A DNA stretch of 40,232 nucleotides, from the NCBI RefSeq assembly GCF_015487065.1, contig NZ_WFQN01000108.1, positions 1 through 40,232 of the forward strand, in the 5' to 3' direction. This document shows, one piece after another, positions 3,010-38,881 of this stretch (within the stretch, counting starts at the first letter, position 1; every line of letters starts with the position of its first letter). The DNA comes from Nitratifractor sp. (GTDB lineage Bacteria > Campylobacterota > Campylobacteria > Campylobacterales > Sulfurovaceae). Both the position numbers and the translations under genes were made by a program. The notes beneath the pieces are model-generated. The model was given only the letters and a program-made list of their open reading frames with translations. It made no database searches and had not been told where the DNA came from.

Positions 3010-4908
3010 ATGAGACTAGAAGCGATCAGCGCCCGACATACAAAAATCAACAAAATAGAGAAGCTCAAAGAGACCCGGAGCTATCAGGAAGCCTGGGAAG
3101 CGTTGCAGCGCTACGCCAAAGAGGGATACGACGCCATCAGCAAAGAGGATATGAGCTACTTCCTCAAGACCTTCGGCATCTTCGATCGCCCGGCAACCCC
3201 CGGAAAATTCATGCTTCGCGTCCGCATCCCCGGCGGACGCCTGACGAGTGAGCAGGCGACCCGACTGGGCGAGCTCTCCCGGGATTACGGCGAAGACGCC
3301 ATGGACCTGACGACCCGGATGCAGGTGCAGCTGCGCTATCTGAAGATCGAGGACCTTCCTACGGTCCTGGAGGGGCTTGAAGCGGTGGGCATTACCACCT
3401 GGCAGACGGGGGTGGACAACTTCCGCAATATTGTCACCGATCCTCTCGACGGCCTGGCCTTCGACAACCTCATCGAGTGTGCCCCGCTTATCGAAGCGAT
3501 GCAGTCGCTCTGGCTCAAACAGCCCGACTATATCAATGTGCTTCCCAGGAAGTTCAACACCGCCATCAGCGGCTCACTGGCCAACCGTTGCAACCTCTTC
3601 GCCCATGATATCTGCTTCGCCTTGGCTAACAAGGACGGAGAATACGGTTTCAACCTCTACCTGGGGGGCAAGGTCGGGGCCATCGCCGAGCGGGCCGATA
3701 TCTTCGTTACCCCCGATGAATTGATGGAGCTCTACAAAGCGGTTATCGATACCTATATCCAATACGGTTTCCGGGACAGCCGCAACCGTAACCGGCTTCA
3801 CTACCTGATCAAAGAGGCGGGAATGGAGACCTACGTCGAAGCGGTCAAAGAGAGCGCCGGCCGGGATTTCGACAGCGCCGGAGAGACCCTGGTCAAAACT
3901 CCCCGCACCGAAGAGGCCGACGGGCGGATCCGCCTCAAAGACGGGACGTGGGCTCTGCATACGGTCGTCCCCTCAGGGATCTTCCACGGGACGGCGATGA
4001 TCGACGCGGCGGAGAATGCTCAAAAGAACGGTTCGGGAACGCTCAACATCTCCACGACCCAGAATCTTTTCCTCCTAGGGGTGCCCACGGAGAAAATCGA
4101 CGCGGCCCTTTCCGAAGCCCCCTACGACCGCTACCGCAACGTCAGCACCCCTTACTTCAATCAACTCGTTGCCTGCGCCGGCTCAGACCTCTGCCCCTTT
4201 GGCGTCATCCCCAACAAAGCCGACGCCATCGAGATGGCCGAGAAACTGGGCGAAAAGGTTCCTCTCCCTGCCGACGCGTCGATCCGGATGCACTGGTCGG
4301 GCTGCGTCAAGGGCTGCGGTGTCCACGAGCTGGGGGATATCGGCTTTGTCGGCTGCAAGGTTAAAGTGGACGGTCAGAGCGCCTACGGTGTGCATATCCA
4401 GCTGGGAGGCAAATCGACCGCCAGTCAGGAGGAAGCCTACACGATCCTCAAAAGTATTCCGCTGACTCAGGCGACCGACTACGTGGCGCAGTTGGCGTCG
4501 GCCTATCGGGATCTGCGCCGGAAGCGGGAGAGCTTCGAACGCTTCGAGAGCCGGGTGCTTCGCCGTTACTCCAAAGGGGCCCTGGGCTTTTTGCTCCACT
4601 GGAATGTCCGGATCGCTCTGCCCAAAGGGTGGGAGGCTCTCGCCATCCGGGAAAACCGAGAAGCCTGCGAAGAGCGCAACGAGATCTTTTTGATGGGGCT
4701 GGAGATCTACAAGGCCCTCGCCGGCAAAAACGCCTATCAGGGCACGCACCATTACGACCCCATTGAGAAGACCCCCGCCGAAGCGCTCCATCGGCTCAAT
4801 CCCTTGGTGAACAAAGAACTCAGTGACGTCGTTATGAAAATGATCGCACCGTCCGAAAAGCGTTACGAAGTCTTTACGGAAGTATTGGCGGATCTGGGAA
4901 TAAAGTAA
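3010..4908 (+). CDS. nirA: Ferredoxin-dependent nitrite/sulfite reductase family protein (siroheme, 4Fe-4S)
   Basis: Two-cysteine-pair siroheme/Fe-S motif ACAGSDLCPFGV...SGCVKGCGVHELGDIGFVGC. Start taken as ATG 3010 (MRLEAISARHTKINK), downstream of the track's GTG at 2998. Neighbours favour nitrite over sulfite. Confidence 0.85.
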   Translation: MRLEAISARHTKINKIEKLKETRSYQEAWEALQRYAKEGYDAISKEDMSYFLKTFGIFDRPATPGKFMLRVRIPGGRLTSEQATRLGELSRDYGEDAMDLTTRMQVQLRYLKIEDLPTVLEGLEAVGITTWQTGVDNFRNIVTDPLDGLAFDNLIECAPLIEAMQSLWLKQPDYINVLPRKFNTAISGSLANRCNLFAHDICFALANKDGEYGFNLYLGGKVGAIAERADIFVTPDELMELYKAVIDTYIQYGFRDSRNRNRLHYLIKEAGMETYVEAVKESAGRDFDSAGETLVKTPRTEEADGRIRLKDGTWALHTVVPSGIFHGTAMIDAAENAQKNGSGTLNISTTQNLFLLGVPTEKIDAALSEAPYDRYRNVSTPYFNQLVACAGSDLCPFGVIPNKADAIEMAEKLGEKVPLPADASIRMHWSGCVKGCGVHELGDIGFVGCKVKVDGQSAYGVHIQLGGKSTASQEEAYTILKSIPLTQATDYVAQLASAYRDLRRKRESFERFESRVLRRYSKGALGFLLHWNVRIALPKGWEALAIRENREACEERNEIFLMGLEIYKALAGKNAYQGTHHYDPIEKTPAEALHRLNPLVNKELSDVVMKMIAPSEKRYEVFTEVLADLGIK

Positions 4909-4941
4909 GATGGAAGATGGAGGATGGAAGATGGAAGATTT
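4907..4941. repeat. Heptamer tandem array starting inside the nirA stop codon
   Basis: AAGATGG AAGATGG AGGATGG AAGATGG AAGATTT; nirA TAA is 4906-4908. Confidence 0.8.
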
Positions 4942-4984
4942 TGGATAATCATTTGAATGAAATAAAGAACGGAAACATTTTTCA

Positions 4985-5071
4985 TAACACGTAACACTTA
5001 GCACATAGCACAAAATACTTGCGACGGCGCCGAAGGCGCTCCCAATATACCAATACACCAATAACCAAATA
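4985..5071. repeat. Heptamer array plus GCGCC-GAA-GGCGC hairpin plus CCAATACA-type octamers, upstream of amt
   Basis: TAACACG TAACACT TAGCACA TAGCACA (4985-5012); hairpin 5027-5039; CCAATATACCAATACACCAATAACCAAATAACC. Confidence 0.75.
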
Positions 5072-5191
5072 ACCCCTTGGTGAACGCCAAGGCTCAATTG
5101 CCTAAATTTTATACATTTAACTGTACCGATCACGAAAAAATTTGAAATACAATGTGAGCATCCAAATCCCAAACGAAAAAAAGGACGTTTT

Positions 5192-12916: not shown

Positions 12917-12938
12917 GTGCATTGCACTCAAAGCAAAT
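12906..12938. repeat. Perfect 15-3-15 inverted repeat containing the ribA stop codon
   Basis: ATTTGCTTTGAGTGC-ATT-GCACTCAAAGCAAAT; the TGA of ribA (12914-12916) lies in the left arm. Confidence 0.85.
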
Positions 12939-12939
12939 T

Positions 12940-12967
12940 AGGAATGAGGAATTAGGAATGAGGAACC
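12940..12967. repeat. Heptamer tandem array, 4 units (AGGAATG AGGAATT AGGAATG AGGAACC)
   Basis: Read directly; abuts the 15-3-15 hairpin. Confidence 0.8.
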
Positions 12968-12978
12968 GAAGAAGTCGG

Positions 12979-13001
12979 GTAGAGTGGGATTGTAATCCCA
13001 C
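12979..13001. repeat. REP-like hairpin headed by GTAG
   Basis: GTAG-A-GTGGGATT-GT-AATCCCAC, 8-bp perfect stem. Confidence 0.65.
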
Positions 13002-13039
13002 GAACCTGTGAAGAGGCTAAATGAGTACCCCTTTCCATT

Positions 13040-13130
13040 AAATGAAGGCTTCAGGGTCTCTTCTTCATTTCTTTTTCTTTGTTTACGCGACAAAGAAAAA
13101 GGAAACGAAGCAAAGAAAAAGAAAACGCGA
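13040..13130. repeat. Palindromic polypurine/polypyrimidine element between ribA and rsmG
   Basis: TTTCTTTTTCTTTG (13068-13081) has an exact reverse complement CAAAGAAAAAGAAA (13111-13124) and a near-exact one CAAAGAAAAAGGAAA (13091-13105); also AATGAAG / CTTCATT just upstream. Confidence 0.6.
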
Positions 13131-33868: not shown

Positions 33869-34576
33869 CTATCCCCCGAGATAGGCGGCACGTACCCTTT
33901 CATCTTTTTCAAGTTGAACGGAGAGGCCTTCGCGGACGATACGGCCGTTTTCTAAGAGATAGGCTCTGTCGGTCTGCCGGAGGGCCAGATGAGCGTTTTG
34001 TTCTACGAGGAAGATGGTGGTTCCGCTCTCTCTCAGTTTTTTGAGAGTTTCGAAGATCTCCTCGACGATCACAGGTGCCAGGCCCATACTCGGCTCATCA
34101 AGAAGCAATAGATTTGGTCGGCTCATCAGTGCCCGTCCTACGGCGACCATCTGTTGTTGACCTCCGCTGAGAGTACCGGCGTAGGCTTTGCGTTTCTCCT
34201 TCAGGATGGGGAAGCGTCGATAGATCTCTTTCAGATCGTGAAGGATCTCTTTTTGATCCTGTCTGGTATATGCGCCGAGAAGCAGGTTGTCCTCGACAGT
34301 GAGCGTGGCAAAAAGCCCTCGCCCCTCGGGCACTTGAGCGATCCCCTCTTTGACCCGTCGGTCGGAGGGAAGGCGGGTGATTTCACGGCTGAAATAGTCG
34401 ATCCGACCTCTGTGTGGAACAATCAGACCGCTCAGAGTACGCAGCAGCGTCGTCTTTCCCGCTCCGTTGGCTCCGATCAATGCAACGATCTCTCCCTCTT
34501 TGATTTGCAACGAAATCTCATGCAGTGCTTCGATCTTGCCGTAATTGACGGAGAGATTTTCCACAATTAAAATCAT
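33869..34576 (-). CDS. livF: Branched-chain amino acid-type ABC transporter ATP-binding protein LivF
   Basis: MILIVENLSVNYGKIEALHEISL, GANGAGKTTLL, LSGGQQQMVAVGRALMSRP; ATGA overlap with livG. Confidence 0.93.
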   Translation of the reverse strand: MILIVENLSVNYGKIEALHEISLQIKEGEIVALIGANGAGKTTLLRTLSGLIVPHRGRIDYFSREITRLPSDRRVKEGIAQVPEGRGLFATLTVEDNLLLGAYTRQDQKEILHDLKEIYRRFPILKEKRKAYAGTLSGGQQQMVAVGRALMSRPNLLLLDEPSMGLAPVIVEEIFETLKKLRESGTTIFLVEQNAHLALRQTDRAYLLENGRIVREGLSVQLEKDERVRAAYLGG

Positions 34577-35328
34577 CGATTCCCTCCCAGATAGGCTTCG
34601 ATCACCTCCGGATCGTTCCGGATCTCCTCCGGGGGCCCTTCGGCCAGTTTTTTTCCGAAGTGCATAACGGTGATACGATCCGAGAGCTCCATGACCATGC
34701 GCATATCGTGCTCGATGAGGATCACCGTCACTTCGTCGGTGACGATGGTGCGGATCAGCTCGGCCACTTCGGCGGTCTCTTTGGGGTTGAGCCCTGCGAC
34801 AGGTTCGTCCAGCAGGAGCAGTTCCGGGCCTGTGGCCAGTGCCCGGACGATCTCCAGCTTTTTCAGGATGCCGTAGGAGAGATTGTGTGCCTTCTGATGG
34901 GCATAGTCTCGAATATCGATAAGCTCCAGAAGGTGCATTGCTCTTTCGGTGTAGCGCCGTTCCTCCTCCAAGAGCTTTCGCGAACGCAGCAGGGTGGGCC
35001 ACAGCCCCTTGCTCAGATAGCGGTCGAAGCCGAGCATCACATTCTCCAGTACCGTCATACCGCCGCAGATCTCCAGATTCTGGAAAGTGCGGCAGATCCC
35101 CCGATAGACCAGTTGATCGGTGGGGGTGTCGGTGATGTCCGCTCCGTCGAGCCAGACGCTCCCCCCGTCGCTGCGGTAGACACCGCTGATGGTGTTGATC
35201 AGTGTGGTCTTACCCGCTCCGTTGGGACCGATGACGGCATGGATATGCCCTTTGGCCACCCGGAAGCTGATGTCGTCCACCGCCGTCAGGCCTCCGAAGC
35301 GTTTGGTGAGGTTGCGGATCTCAAGCAC
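34573..35328 (-). CDS. livG: Branched-chain amino acid-type ABC transporter ATP-binding protein LivG
   Basis: GPNGAGKTTLINTISGVYRSDGG, LLLDEPVAGLNPKETAE; GTG start with AAAGGGG SD. Confidence 0.93.
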   Translation of the reverse strand: MLEIRNLTKRFGGLTAVDDISFRVAKGHIHAVIGPNGAGKTTLINTISGVYRSDGGSVWLDGADITDTPTDQLVYRGICRTFQNLEICGGMTVLENVMLGFDRYLSKGLWPTLLRSRKLLEEERRYTERAMHLLELIDIRDYAHQKAHNLSYGILKKLEIVRALATGPELLLLDEPVAGLNPKETAEVAELIRTIVTDEVTVILIEHDMRMVMELSDRITVMHFGKKLAEGPPEEIRNDPEVIEAYLGGNR

Positions 35329-35353
35329 GGATTCCCCTTTGGGGGAAATGAAG

Positions 35354-35620
35354 AGTGAAAAGTGAGGAGTGAGGAACTGAAAACTTCGCTTTCGAGTGGT
35401 GAATGATGAATGGTGAATGGTGAATGGTTTCGGTAGGCGTTGCTTTGCAACACATCCTGTTTAATGGAGGCGGGACTTCAGTCCCGCATGCAGGGCCAAA
35501 GCCCTGCCCCCAATGACCAATGACCAATGACCAATGACTCTTTTCTTGCAACTTGCGACTTGCGACTTGCGACTGTACCGAAGGCGCTCCCAATACACCA
35601 ATACACCAATAACCAATAAC
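35354..35620. repeat. Composite REP/heptamer element, copy 1, in the livM-livG gap
   Basis: AGTGAGG-type heptamers, GGTGAAT array (35398-35425), GTAG hairpin (35433-35453), GGAG hairpin (35466-35487), second hairpin (35490-35507), CCAATGA array (35510-35537), CGACTTG array (35549-35576), CAATACAC octamers (35591-35620). Confidence 0.93.
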
Positions 35621-35625
35621 AAGCA

Positions 35626-36570
35626 CTATCTCTTCCTCCCCATCCCATCAAAAAGCGAAACGATCCCCTTCGGCATGAAGATCATCACCCCGATGATGAT
35701 GGCACCGTAGATCAGGGTCTGATAATCCTCGAAGGTGGTGAGCAGCTGGGGGAGCAGCGTCAGGATCACCGCACCGATGACGGCACCGTAGAGACGCCCC
35801 ATACCGCCCAGAACCACCATGACCACCAGTTCGATGGAGCGGTTGAACCCCGCCTCCTGGGGGGAGATGAACCCTGAGAAAAAGGCGTAGAGACTGCCTG
35901 CCAGGGCGGCGACGACCACAGAGAGGACGAAGACCAGGCTTTTGTAACGGGCCACGTTGACCCCAACGCTGGCCGGAGCGCGTTCCGAGTCATGGAGACT
36001 GCGCAGGATCCGTCCCAGGGGCGATTCGATGAGGTTCTGGGCCAGCCACAGCAGGAGCAGCAGATGCAGGGCCGCCAGGAGATACCACTCCCAGCTCTCG
36101 GTGAAGGTGTGGCCGAAAAGGGAAAAGCTCTCCACACTCATCCCGTCGGTTCCGCCGGTGAGCTCCTCTTCGTTGTTGAGAATGATGGAGACGATGATCC
36201 CCACCCCCAAGGTTGCCATGGCCAGATAGTGGCCCCGCAGTCGGAGGATCGGACGGGCGAGCCCATAGGCCAGGAACGCCATGATCCCCAGACTGACGGC
36301 GATGGAAAAAAGCGGCGCCAGGCCGTAGCGTCCCGTCAGGATGGCGGCGATATAGCCGCCCAGCCCGGCGAAGGCCCCGTGGGCCAGGCTGATCTGTCCC
36401 GCATAGCCCATCAGGAGATTGAGCCCCACGGCAATCATAGCGTTGAAGAGGGCGAGAATGGCGATCTCGTAATAGAAATCGTTGCTCAGCATCCACGGTA
36501 CGAGGGTCAGGATCAGGGCGGTCACTCCCAGGGCGGGGCGAAGGTTCCAGCGTCTGCAGAAAGCTCTCAT
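35626..36570 (-). CDS. livM: Branched-chain amino acid-type ABC transporter permease LivM
   Basis: 314 aa; LNLLMGYAGQISLAHGAFAGLGGYIAAILTGRYG. Confidence 0.92.
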   Translation of the reverse strand: MRAFCRRWNLRPALGVTALILTLVPWMLSNDFYYEIAILALFNAMIAVGLNLLMGYAGQISLAHGAFAGLGGYIAAILTGRYGLAPLFSIAVSLGIMAFLAYGLARPILRLRGHYLAMATLGVGIIVSIILNNEEELTGGTDGMSVESFSLFGHTFTESWEWYLLAALHLLLLLWLAQNLIESPLGRILRSLHDSERAPASVGVNVARYKSLVFVLSVVVAALAGSLYAFFSGFISPQEAGFNRSIELVVMVVLGGMGRLYGAVIGAVILTLLPQLLTTFEDYQTLIYGAIIIGVMIFMPKGIVSLFDGMGRKR

Positions 36571-37436
36571 ACCCGCTGGACCCCCCGATGGCCAAAGAGC
36601 CCGCCGGGCCGGAAGAAGAGGATCAGGAGCATGATGATGAAGGCGACGGCGTCTTTGTACTCCGAAGAGAGATAGCCCGCTACCAGCGCCTCCATGATGC
36701 CCAGGATCAATCCCCCCGCGACGGCACCGAAAGGGTTGGAAAGCCCACCGGTGATTGCCGCGGCGAAGCCCTTGAGTCCCAGCATGATTCCCACTTCGTA
36801 GTTGGTGGAGGTGATGGGGGTCAGGAGGATTCCGCCGATCGAGGCGATGGCGGCGGCCAGGGAGAAACTGAGGATCCAGATCTTTTTGAGGCTGATGCCC
36901 ATGAGCCGGGCGGCATCGGGATCGAGGGAGACGGCGATCATCGCCTTGCCGGTGCGGGTCCGGCGAAAGAAGAACCAGAGCCCCGCTACGATGAGTACCG
37001 AAGCGGTCATTACCAGCAGTGCCTGATAGCTGAGTGTTGCCCCCAGGATCGTCAGGTGTCCTTCACCCAGCATGGGAGGCAGGGTATGAAGCTCCTTGTC
37101 GAAGACCACCTCCGCCGCTCCACGTAAAAAGATGGCGTAGCCCAGGGTGAGGATGATCAGAGATTCCTGAGAGCTCTCTTTGGAGAGATCGGTCAGTTTC
37201 CAGAGCAGTACCCCCAGCAGTGCCGTCAGCCCGATCGCCAGGAGATAGGCGGGCAGATAGGGAACTCCGCCTGCCAGCAGAAAGACCATGATCATCCCCC
37301 CGGCCATGACGAACTCCCCCTGGGCGAAGTTGATGATCCCGCTGGCGTTGTAGATGACGGTAAAGCCCATCCCCACCAGGGCATAGACGAAACCGACAGT
37401 CAGACCGGTGAGGAGAAAGGCGAAAAGCTCTGTCAT
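36567..37436 (-). CDS. livH: Branched-chain amino acid-type ABC transporter permease LivH
   Basis: MTELFAFLLTGLTVGFVYALVGMGFTVIYNASGIINFAQGEFVMAGG. Start 37436; the track's upstream extension is repeat sequence. Confidence 0.92.
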   Translation of the reverse strand: MTELFAFLLTGLTVGFVYALVGMGFTVIYNASGIINFAQGEFVMAGGMIMVFLLAGGVPYLPAYLLAIGLTALLGVLLWKLTDLSKESSQESLIILTLGYAIFLRGAAEVVFDKELHTLPPMLGEGHLTILGATLSYQALLVMTASVLIVAGLWFFFRRTRTGKAMIAVSLDPDAARLMGISLKKIWILSFSLAAAIASIGGILLTPITSTNYEVGIMLGLKGFAAAITGGLSNPFGAVAGGLILGIMEALVAGYLSSEYKDAVAFIIMLLILFFRPGGLFGHRGVQRV

Positions 37437-37462
37437 TTTTCGCTCCAGATGGCGAAAAATGA

Positions 37463-37728
37463 GTGAGGAGTGAGGAGTGAGGAGTGAGGAACCGAAAGCT
37501 TTGCTTTCGAGTGGTGAATGATGAGTGGTGAATGGTGAATGGTTTCGGTAGGCGTTGCTTTGCAACGCATCCTGTTTAATGGAGGCGGGACTTCAGTCCC
37601 GTATGCAGGGCCAAAGCCCTGCCTCCAATGACCAATGACTAATGAGCAATGGCTCTTTTCTTGCGACTTGCGACTTGCGACTTGCAACTGCGCCCCCAAT
37701 ACACCAATACACCAGTACACCAATAACA
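37463..37728. repeat. Composite REP/heptamer element, copy 2, in the livK-livH gap
   Basis: GTGAGGA x4 (37463-37490), hairpin CGAAAGC-TTT-GCTTTCG (37493-37509), GGTGAAT x4 (37513-37540), GTAG + GCGTTGC-TTT-GCAACGC (37548-37568), GGAG hairpin (37581-37602), hairpin + CTCC (37605-37626), CCAATGA-type x4 (37625-37652), CGACTTG-type array, CAATACAC octamers. Confidence 0.93.
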
Positions 37729-37738
37729 TATCTCTTAT

Positions 37739-38881
37739 CTATTCCGCCAATTTCCAATCGCCATTTTTGATCCGCAGCATCACCAGACCCGATTTGGTAT
37801 CGAGCCCCAGGTGGTCGGTGGGGCTCATGTTGACTACCCCGTCGATGCCGACGAAATCGTGCAGGCTCTCCAGGCCGTCCCGGATGGCCGCGGGAGAGGT
37901 TCCTATACGCTTGACGGCGTCGGTGATGGCGTACAGAGAGTCGTAGGCGTGGCCTCCGAAGCTGGCCACGGGAGTGTGGAAGGTTTTTTCATACTCGTTC
38001 TTGTAGGCCAGACAGACCTTTTTGACCGGGTTGCTGTCGGGGAGCTTGGCGGCCACCACGACCGGCGGAGAGACCACATAGACCCCTTCGGCGGCGGGAC
38101 CGGCGATTTCGATATATTTTTTGGAGGCAACCCCGTGGGATTCATAGAGGGGCATTTTGAGCCCCAGCTGCTTGAAGTTCTTGGTTACGATAGCGGGCCC
38201 CTGACCGAATCCGGGGTTGAGGACCGCCTGGACACCGGGAGTGTTTTTGATCTTGAGCAGCTGGGCGCTCATGTCGGTATCCTTCTTGCCGTAGGTTTCG
38301 TCGGCGAGGATATCGATCCCCATATCCTTGGCCACCATTTTGCACTGTTTGCGCATCGACTTGCCGAAACCGCCGCTGCCCGAGAGCATGGCGATCTTGG
38401 AGATCTGATGGGCTTTCATATGTTCCATGATTTTTTGACACGCCATCCGGTCGGTAGCGACGATTTTGAAGACCCACTTTTTGACCGGATCGATGATGGG
38501 GACCCCTCCAGCCATGGAGAGCATGGGGATCTTCGATTTCTGGATCAACGGGATGAGGGCCATGGTCTCTCCCGTGGTGGAGGGGCCGATGACGGCGGCG
38601 ACCTTGTCTTTATAGAGGAGCCGCTTGGCGAAGGTGACTGCCTTCTTGGGATTGGCGCCGGTATCGTAGGCGACCAACTCCAGCTTGTGTCCTGCGACGC
38701 CGCCGGCATTATTGATCTTTTGGACGTAATGCCGGAGTGTTTTGAGCTCCGGATCTCCGATGAACGAGGCCGGCCCGGTGGCGGAGACCAGGGCGCCGAT
38801 GCGGATCGGCTCCTCTGCCAGAGCGGTTCCACTCCAGAACAGGGTGACAAGTGCCAGAATTTTCAACCATATCGATTTCAT
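37739..38881 (-). CDS. livK: Branched-chain amino acid-type ABC transporter substrate-binding protein
   Basis: 380 aa with signal peptide; PIRIGALVSATGPASFIGDPELKTLRHYVQKINNAGGVAGHKLELVAYDTGANP. Confidence 0.92.
   Translation of the reverse strand: MKSIWLKILALVTLFWSGTALAEEPIRIGALVSATGPASFIGDPELKTLRHYVQKINNAGGVAGHKLELVAYDTGANPKKAVTFAKRLLYKDKVAAVIGPSTTGETMALIPLIQKSKIPMLSMAGGVPIIDPVKKWVFKIVATDRMACQKIMEHMKAHQISKIAMLSGSGGFGKSMRKQCKMVAKDMGIDILADETYGKKDTDMSAQLLKIKNTPGVQAVLNPGFGQGPAIVTKNFKQLGLKMPLYESHGVASKKYIEIAGPAAEGVYVVSPPVVVAAKLPDSNPVKKVCLAYKNEYEKTFHTPVASFGGHAYDSLYAITDAVKRIGTSPAAIRDGLESLHDFVGIDGVVNMSPTDHLGLDTKSGLVMLRIKNGDWKLAE

Follow-up and report, generated by a model that had tools for sequence, protein, structure and literature searches.

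Heptamer repeats between genes have been described in bacteria of several phyla, but there is no agreement on what they do, and related intergenic heptamers include TAACTGA in Beggiatoaceae (PMC4679880) and GGGAATC in Xanthomonas and Nostoc (PMC4692102). Termination-reinitiation, in turn, operates at junctions with -4, -1 or -8 overlaps, and a spacer of about 20 nt almost eliminates it (PMC10666635). A literature search for Nitratifractor heptamer repeats or for repeat-based translational coupling returned nothing specific. Here we analyze two repeat elements in the liv operon of Nitratifractor sp., a deep-sea vent bacterium, and propose that they are parts of open reading frames (ORFs), a reading that would give intergenic heptamers a concrete, testable role. 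Judging from the sequence, these elements are probably translational relay ORFs that preserve termination-reinitiation coupling across the insertion of repeats.

Modular elements in the liv operon

The window, that is, the whole stretch of DNA analyzed (40,232 nt; contig NZ_WFQN01000108.1 of assembly GCF_015487065.1), belongs to a metagenome-assembled genome (MAG) of 1.86 Mb in 178 contigs, with 88.6% completeness and 6.7% contamination. ORFs and Pfam matches identified a minus-strand livKHMGF operon:

37739-38881, minus strand: livK, branched-chain amino acid binding protein (ORF, PF13458)
36567-37436, minus strand: livH, permease (PF02653)
35626-36570, minus strand: livM, permease (PF02653)
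34573-35328, minus strand: livG, ATPase (PF00005, PF12399)
33869-34576, minus strand: livF, ATPase (ORF/Pfam)

The livH/livM and livG/livF junctions are 4-nt ATGA overlaps, so that the operon has large gaps only between livK and livH (302 nt) and between livM and livG (297 nt). Both are occupied by an element, as a preliminary description of this DNA had stated for an otherwise tight operon. The same description had reported two near-identical copies of about 270 bp with a common order of modules, and the present data agree. The modular copies lie in identical orientation, with 90% identity over the full length (BLAST) and 93% in the ungapped block 35349-35575 versus 37464-37690; in a 99-bp core we also read the three differing sites noted before, all of them transitions. 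The order of modules is as noted earlier, and the arrays were recovered independently by TRF (plus-strand letters, sense units in brackets):

35349-35620, sense strand minus: composite element copy 1, livM-livG gap (BLAST/alignment)
35397-35428, minus strand: heptamer array TGGTGAA (sense ACCATTC), copy 1 (TRF)
35437-35453, minus strand: mini-hairpin GCGTTGC..GCAACRC, copy 1 (sequence)
35470-35487, minus strand: mini-hairpin GCGGGACT..AGTCCCGC, copy 1 (sequence)
35490-35507, minus strand: mini-hairpin GCAGGGC..GCCCTGC, copy 1 (sequence)
35510-35538, minus strand: heptamer array CCAATGA (sense ATTGGTC), copy 1 (TRF)
35545-35574, minus strand: heptamer array CTTGCGA (sense AAGTCGC), copy 1 (TRF)
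35590-35618, minus strand: octamer array CCAATACA, copy 1 (TRF)
37464-37727, minus strand: composite element copy 2, livK-livH gap (BLAST/alignment)
37461-37490, minus strand: heptamer array GAGTGAG (sense ACTCCTC), copy 2 (TRF)
37512-37543, minus strand: heptamer array TGGTGAA, copy 2 (TRF)
37625-37651, minus strand: heptamer array CCAATGA, copy 2 (TRF)
37660-37689, minus strand: heptamer array CTTGCGA, copy 2 (TRF)
37696-37725, minus strand: octamer array CCAATACA, copy 2 (TRF)

Three other places in the window carry arrays. Octamer arrays (TATTGGTA, CCAATAA) that are relatives of the CCAATACA module are found at 1492-1590, where a short distance separates two co-directional minus-strand genes. 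At 4907-5074 co-directional genes are separated by an AAGATGG heptamer array and then CCAATAA octamers, in a gap that is unbridged as defined below, and at 12936-13125 an AATTAGG/AATGAGG array precedes a purine/pyrimidine-rich inverted repeat, TTTCTTTTTCTTTG..CAAAGAAAAAGGAAA. A known structured RNA was rejected as an explanation of the elements, since no Rfam match was obtained up to E=1.

Copy number, spread and empty sites

Further copies and empty sites had been left by the preliminary description to a BLAST search, which we carried out: 58 further partial element matches are present in the source genome, nine relatives from its genus have 16-54 each, some sites are empty, and no matches occur in the three same-genus genomes G003, G004 and G012. 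Period-7 arrays reach a density of 18.6 per 100 kb, versus about 0 for most other periods; this density, together with the 58 matches, indicates that the liv element pair is not due to chance. Members of the family are built from heptamer arrays of about 30 nt (lengths peak at 29-31 nt, corresponding to about 4 units) that alternate with mini-hairpins, and many unit families are used (ACTCCTC, ATTCCTC, ACCATTC, ATTGGTC, AGTCGGC, AAGTCGC, ATCTTCC and others). Among 85,462 species genomes searched, an exact pattern taken from the element was matched solely in Campylobacterota MAGs, and one exact array, ATTGGTC, was present in 5/397 sampled genomes of the phylum. In G021, a complete genome from another family, the exact ATTGGTC array matched 62 times, with some overlap between matches, and in three sampled siblings of its genus not at all, which we read as patchy gain or spread. 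In G011 (N. salsuginis), a 106-bp CGTTGGT array of about 15 units, far above the usual 4, lies in a divergent gap (L083:13307-13412) and is possibly a variable locus.

Two junctions illustrate filled and empty alleles. The livG-livF junction is an ATGA overlap, and thus empty, in the window and in G001, and holds a bridged element of 274-286 nt in G009 and G002. The cdsA-dxr distance is -38 to 39 nt in array-free relatives, but G021 and eight same-genus (Nitratifractor-clade) genomes have arrays at this junction and distances of 106-346 nt, and 9/9 of these gaps are bridged. In alleles that hold an element, the original junction signal is used by the bridging ORF, and the downstream gene has a new Shine-Dalgarno sequence (SD) in front of it. 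The gene nuoE, tried as another set of orthologs, was uninformative, with matches in just 6/31 genomes. The position next to livK is nothing special: the same architecture is found in cdsA-dxr-hydrolase-tsaD and many other operons. At G001 L105 and G008 L123 there are operons with a bridging element at nearly every junction, for example cdsA-dxr-hydrolase-tsaD-lgt (names from N-terminal sequences only).

Regarding the earlier proposal of a mobile or conversion-homogenized element, the data support dispersal and empty-site alleles but not mobility through a known transposase, as Y1/RAYT genes do not track the element. Y1 (PF01797) transposases were not detected in the element-rich genomes G000, G002, G005, G006 and G009, so they are not required by the element, and they are present in the element-free G003 and G013; a RAYT/Y1 mobilizer was consequently rejected. 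The seven Y1 (PF01797) matches with identical scores in G011 likely reflect the recent expansion of an IS200-type transposon, with no relation to the elements. In a comparison with MITEs, module content and ends were found to vary by locus, some elements spanning from GAGTGAG to CTCACTC arrays and others not, and, since N is variable, the NTGA...ATGA pattern at junctions is accounted for by the function of start and stop codons.

The bridging frame and its peptide

In each of the two window gaps exactly one sense frame runs without stops from end to end, and its own stop overlaps the start of the next gene:

35321-35626, minus strand: bridging ORF 1, 101 aa; overlaps livM through its GTG start (TAGTG at the livM stop) and livG through its TGA stop (GTGCTTGA at the livG start) (ORF/frame analysis)
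37433-37729, minus strand: bridging ORF 2, 98 aa; ATG 9 nt past the livK stop and hence without overlap with livK, TGA stop overlaps the livH start (ATGA) (ORF/frame analysis)

The sense strand of the two gaps contains 2 and 4 stops, versus 18 and 17 on the other strand. When the liv operon was rebuilt in five relatives, 11/11 element-bearing liv gaps from six genomes had exactly one open frame that stopped at the next start (ATGA or ATGCTTGA), with up to 8 stops in the other frames. At the level of sequence, this contradicts the initial classification of the elements as non-coding, and the pattern is genome-wide.

In order to measure bridging beyond the liv operon, a sample of 1.9 Mb from eight genomes was studied, with gene starts from a simple home-made gene finder; sampling was partly hit-guided, as stretches of G005, G008 and G009 were picked on contigs known to carry matches. 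Co-directional gaps of 150-900 nt with at least 2 arrays were considered, a bridging stop was counted at -3 to +12 of the next start, and orthologous loci were pooled except in the test with one gap per gene family. Among such multi-array gaps 45/55 were bridged, 44/55 with the stop at -3 to +12, which leaves 11/55 counted as unbridged, and the antisense strand was open in 1/55. Array-free co-directional gaps gave 31/208 bridged and 23/208 stopping near the next start, which indicates some background, and divergent or convergent multi-array gaps gave 0/7. Dinucleotide shuffles yielded a mean of 5.9 and a maximum of 11 (200 shuffles) against the 44 observed. Randomization of the phase between modules yielded a mean of only 11.0 and a maximum of 22 (200 runs), from which we conclude that the modules of an element are coordinated in phase. 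When each downstream-gene family was represented by a single gap, 32/41 were bridged (shuffles: mean 3.6, maximum 10; 1000 shuffles), and 19/41 families qualified when strict overlaps of both start and stop were demanded. Bridging was also found in 14/21 gaps of the source genome outside the window and in 11/13 gaps of G002, G006 and G010, which lie outside the main sample.

Bridged junctions show overlaps of the kinds used in termination-reinitiation (-4, -1 or -8): 33 of the 44 stops lie exactly at +1 (ATGA, 4-nt or -4 overlap) and 5 at +5 (8-nt or -8 overlap) of the downstream gene, and in 31/44 the bridging frame is the one whose start codon overlaps the upstream TGA. These end overlaps bear on the view that translation merely shields the mRNA, in which stop-free inserts survive in operons because an untranslated insert would provoke Rho-dependent polarity or decay, and reinitiation is not the target. 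Openness inside operons and its absence from divergent or convergent gaps would fit such shielding equally well, as would the lack of a conserved peptide, but neither the exact -4 and -8 overlaps nor the SD/AUG hairpins described below are predicted by it, and we consider it unlikely.

Bridging is not a simple by-product of heptamers. G021 has 36 period-7 arrays in 590 kb, yet only 1/8 of its multi-array gaps is bridged (p=4e-4), the further exception being its short, bridged cdsA-dxr gap with one array; plentiful arrays without bridges rule out that heptamers alone produce them. The G018 gaps with arrays that were examined are unbridged too, and bridging is thus mainly a trait of the Nitratifractor clade.

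The frame is kept although the peptide is not. Mismatches between homologous bridging ORFs are spread evenly over the three codon positions, orthologous gaps encode unrelated peptides, and the livM-livG ORF of G002 stays open even though its module DNA, 74-78% identical to that of the others, is read in another codon phase. ORFs of 98-101 aa overlapping at gene junctions might suggest ordinary genes for small functional proteins, but for these reasons this is hardly credible; a functional peptide was rejected on the absent codon-position bias and the differing phase, and the peptide would be only a by-product. Annotation pipelines may overlook bridging ORFs or label them as small hypothetical proteins. 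When orthologous bridged gaps were compared, their lengths differed by 3-210 nt, and the difference was a multiple of 3 in 11/12 comparisons (p=4.7e-5). Where units contain a stop (ACTAGTT, AATGAGG), the in-frame unit is altered in several arrays (TAG to TCG or TTG, TGA to TTA), and in other stop-bearing arrays, located at the 5' end, the stop serves as the upstream stop codon.

In 145/159 arrays of bridged gaps the units are free of stops in any sense frame. This fact and the dispersal of the family with its empty sites are in agreement with a selfish repeat built to be translatable on its sense strand, so that stop-free 7-nt units land in operons unnoticed and bridging reflects survivorship without a host function. 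A repeat of this kind would find divergent and convergent gaps neutral, but multi-array gaps are enriched among co-directional ones (54/258 versus 7/134; Fisher p=2.7e-5), and the added start hairpins suggest more than tolerance. We regard the selfish origin as a possibility, less than evenly probable, that does not exclude the relay, which concerns the mechanism and not the beneficiary.

Proposed coupling, start-site hairpins and known systems

At the livH start a hairpin is predicted in which the start codon is in the stem and the SD next to the loop:

37428-37467, minus strand: livH start-site hairpin, arms 37428-37443 and 37452-37467 (predicted fold)

Hairpins at the livH start are retained in six species although the sequence changes. 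Starts downstream of bridged elements had a median folding energy of -12.0 kcal/mol, compared to -6.1 for shuffled sequences, whereas for overlapping, short-gap, long-gap and divergent genes the energies were equal to those of shuffles. With one start per family, the median z was -2.1 versus +0.35 for controls (p=1.6e-9).

These results suggest the following relay. Modular intergenic repeats would have inserted between neighboring genes of an operon and remained crossable by ribosomes. Ribosomes that end the upstream gene would reinitiate on the bridging ORF and read through the repeat; on reaching the start hairpin they would open it and begin the downstream gene by a second reinitiation. An untranslated spacer of 200-400 nt would break coupling, whereas a bridging ORF with short end overlaps could relay it across 150-480 nt; because of the start hairpin, the downstream gene would depend on arriving ribosomes. 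Downstream expression is probably attenuated, because two reinitiation steps replace one. The relay would offer a route for insertions hundreds of bases long into essential operons (cdsA-dxr-tsaD, liv) and a way in which non-genic ORFs that preserve the frame could emerge and be kept. The chances seem even to us, given the sequence patterns, that repeat-built translational relays constitute a new class of intergenic element, one that sits at stop-start overlaps, permits stop-free passage in varying phases, brings its own hairpin-locked start, and spreads through operons without breaking coupling while tuning it.

Tuning of expression through mRNA hairpins had been proposed at the outset; expression is likely affected, though the evidence favors translational coupling with start-site hairpins over the internal mini-hairpins alone. 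A REP/BIME-like role, in which the internal mini-hairpins stabilize or process intercistronic mRNA and so set livK versus permease levels, could draw on the stable GC-rich mini-hairpins of both copies and on the precedent of REP/ERIC/BOX insertions in operons (PMC3049150). It would leave the open frame, the conservation of phase and the start overlaps unexplained, and internal hairpin modules are swapped wholesale between orthologous gaps (G001 versus the window), which makes this role quite improbable.

Regarding the relay reading in the context of described systems, the elements resemble the short tandemly repeated heptanucleotides (STRR) of cyanobacteria in their tandem 7-nt units, intergenic location and genome-wide dispersal at many loci. 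They differ in combining many unit families and mini-hairpins into multi-array elements, in that most arrays peak at about 4 units, and in being ORFs linked to both neighboring genes. Arrays of ATTGGTC and AAGTCGC match Nostoc/Calothrix plasmids with weak E-values of 1e-4 to 6e-3, and 11 arrays but no bridged gap were present in a small 100-kb sample of Nostoc plasmids. Arrays of the CCAATGA/ATTGGTC type were also seen on Rhizobium, Serratia and Pantoea plasmids, so the heptamer recurs in distant phyla. With REP/BIME and their RAYT (Y1), the elements share palindromic modules between operon genes, but they have heptamer arrays and an open bridging frame, and no association with Y1. Rickettsia palindromic elements are repeats that stay translatable in the frame of their host and are located inside proteins, whereas the Nitratifractor elements are separate ORFs between genes. 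Pneumococcal BOX elements are likewise modular intergenic repeats, and the large BOX form expressed ORFs or supply stop codons to genes, but their module types are others, and the available portion of that account describes neither heptamer arrays nor a double-overlap ORF relay (PMC3049150), a distinction drawn from the published description. Finally, the ATGA (-4) and -8 stop/start overlaps are those of termination-reinitiation coupling (PMC6728339; PMC10666635), but here the upstream partner is repeat DNA with an unconserved peptide, inserted between former neighbors.
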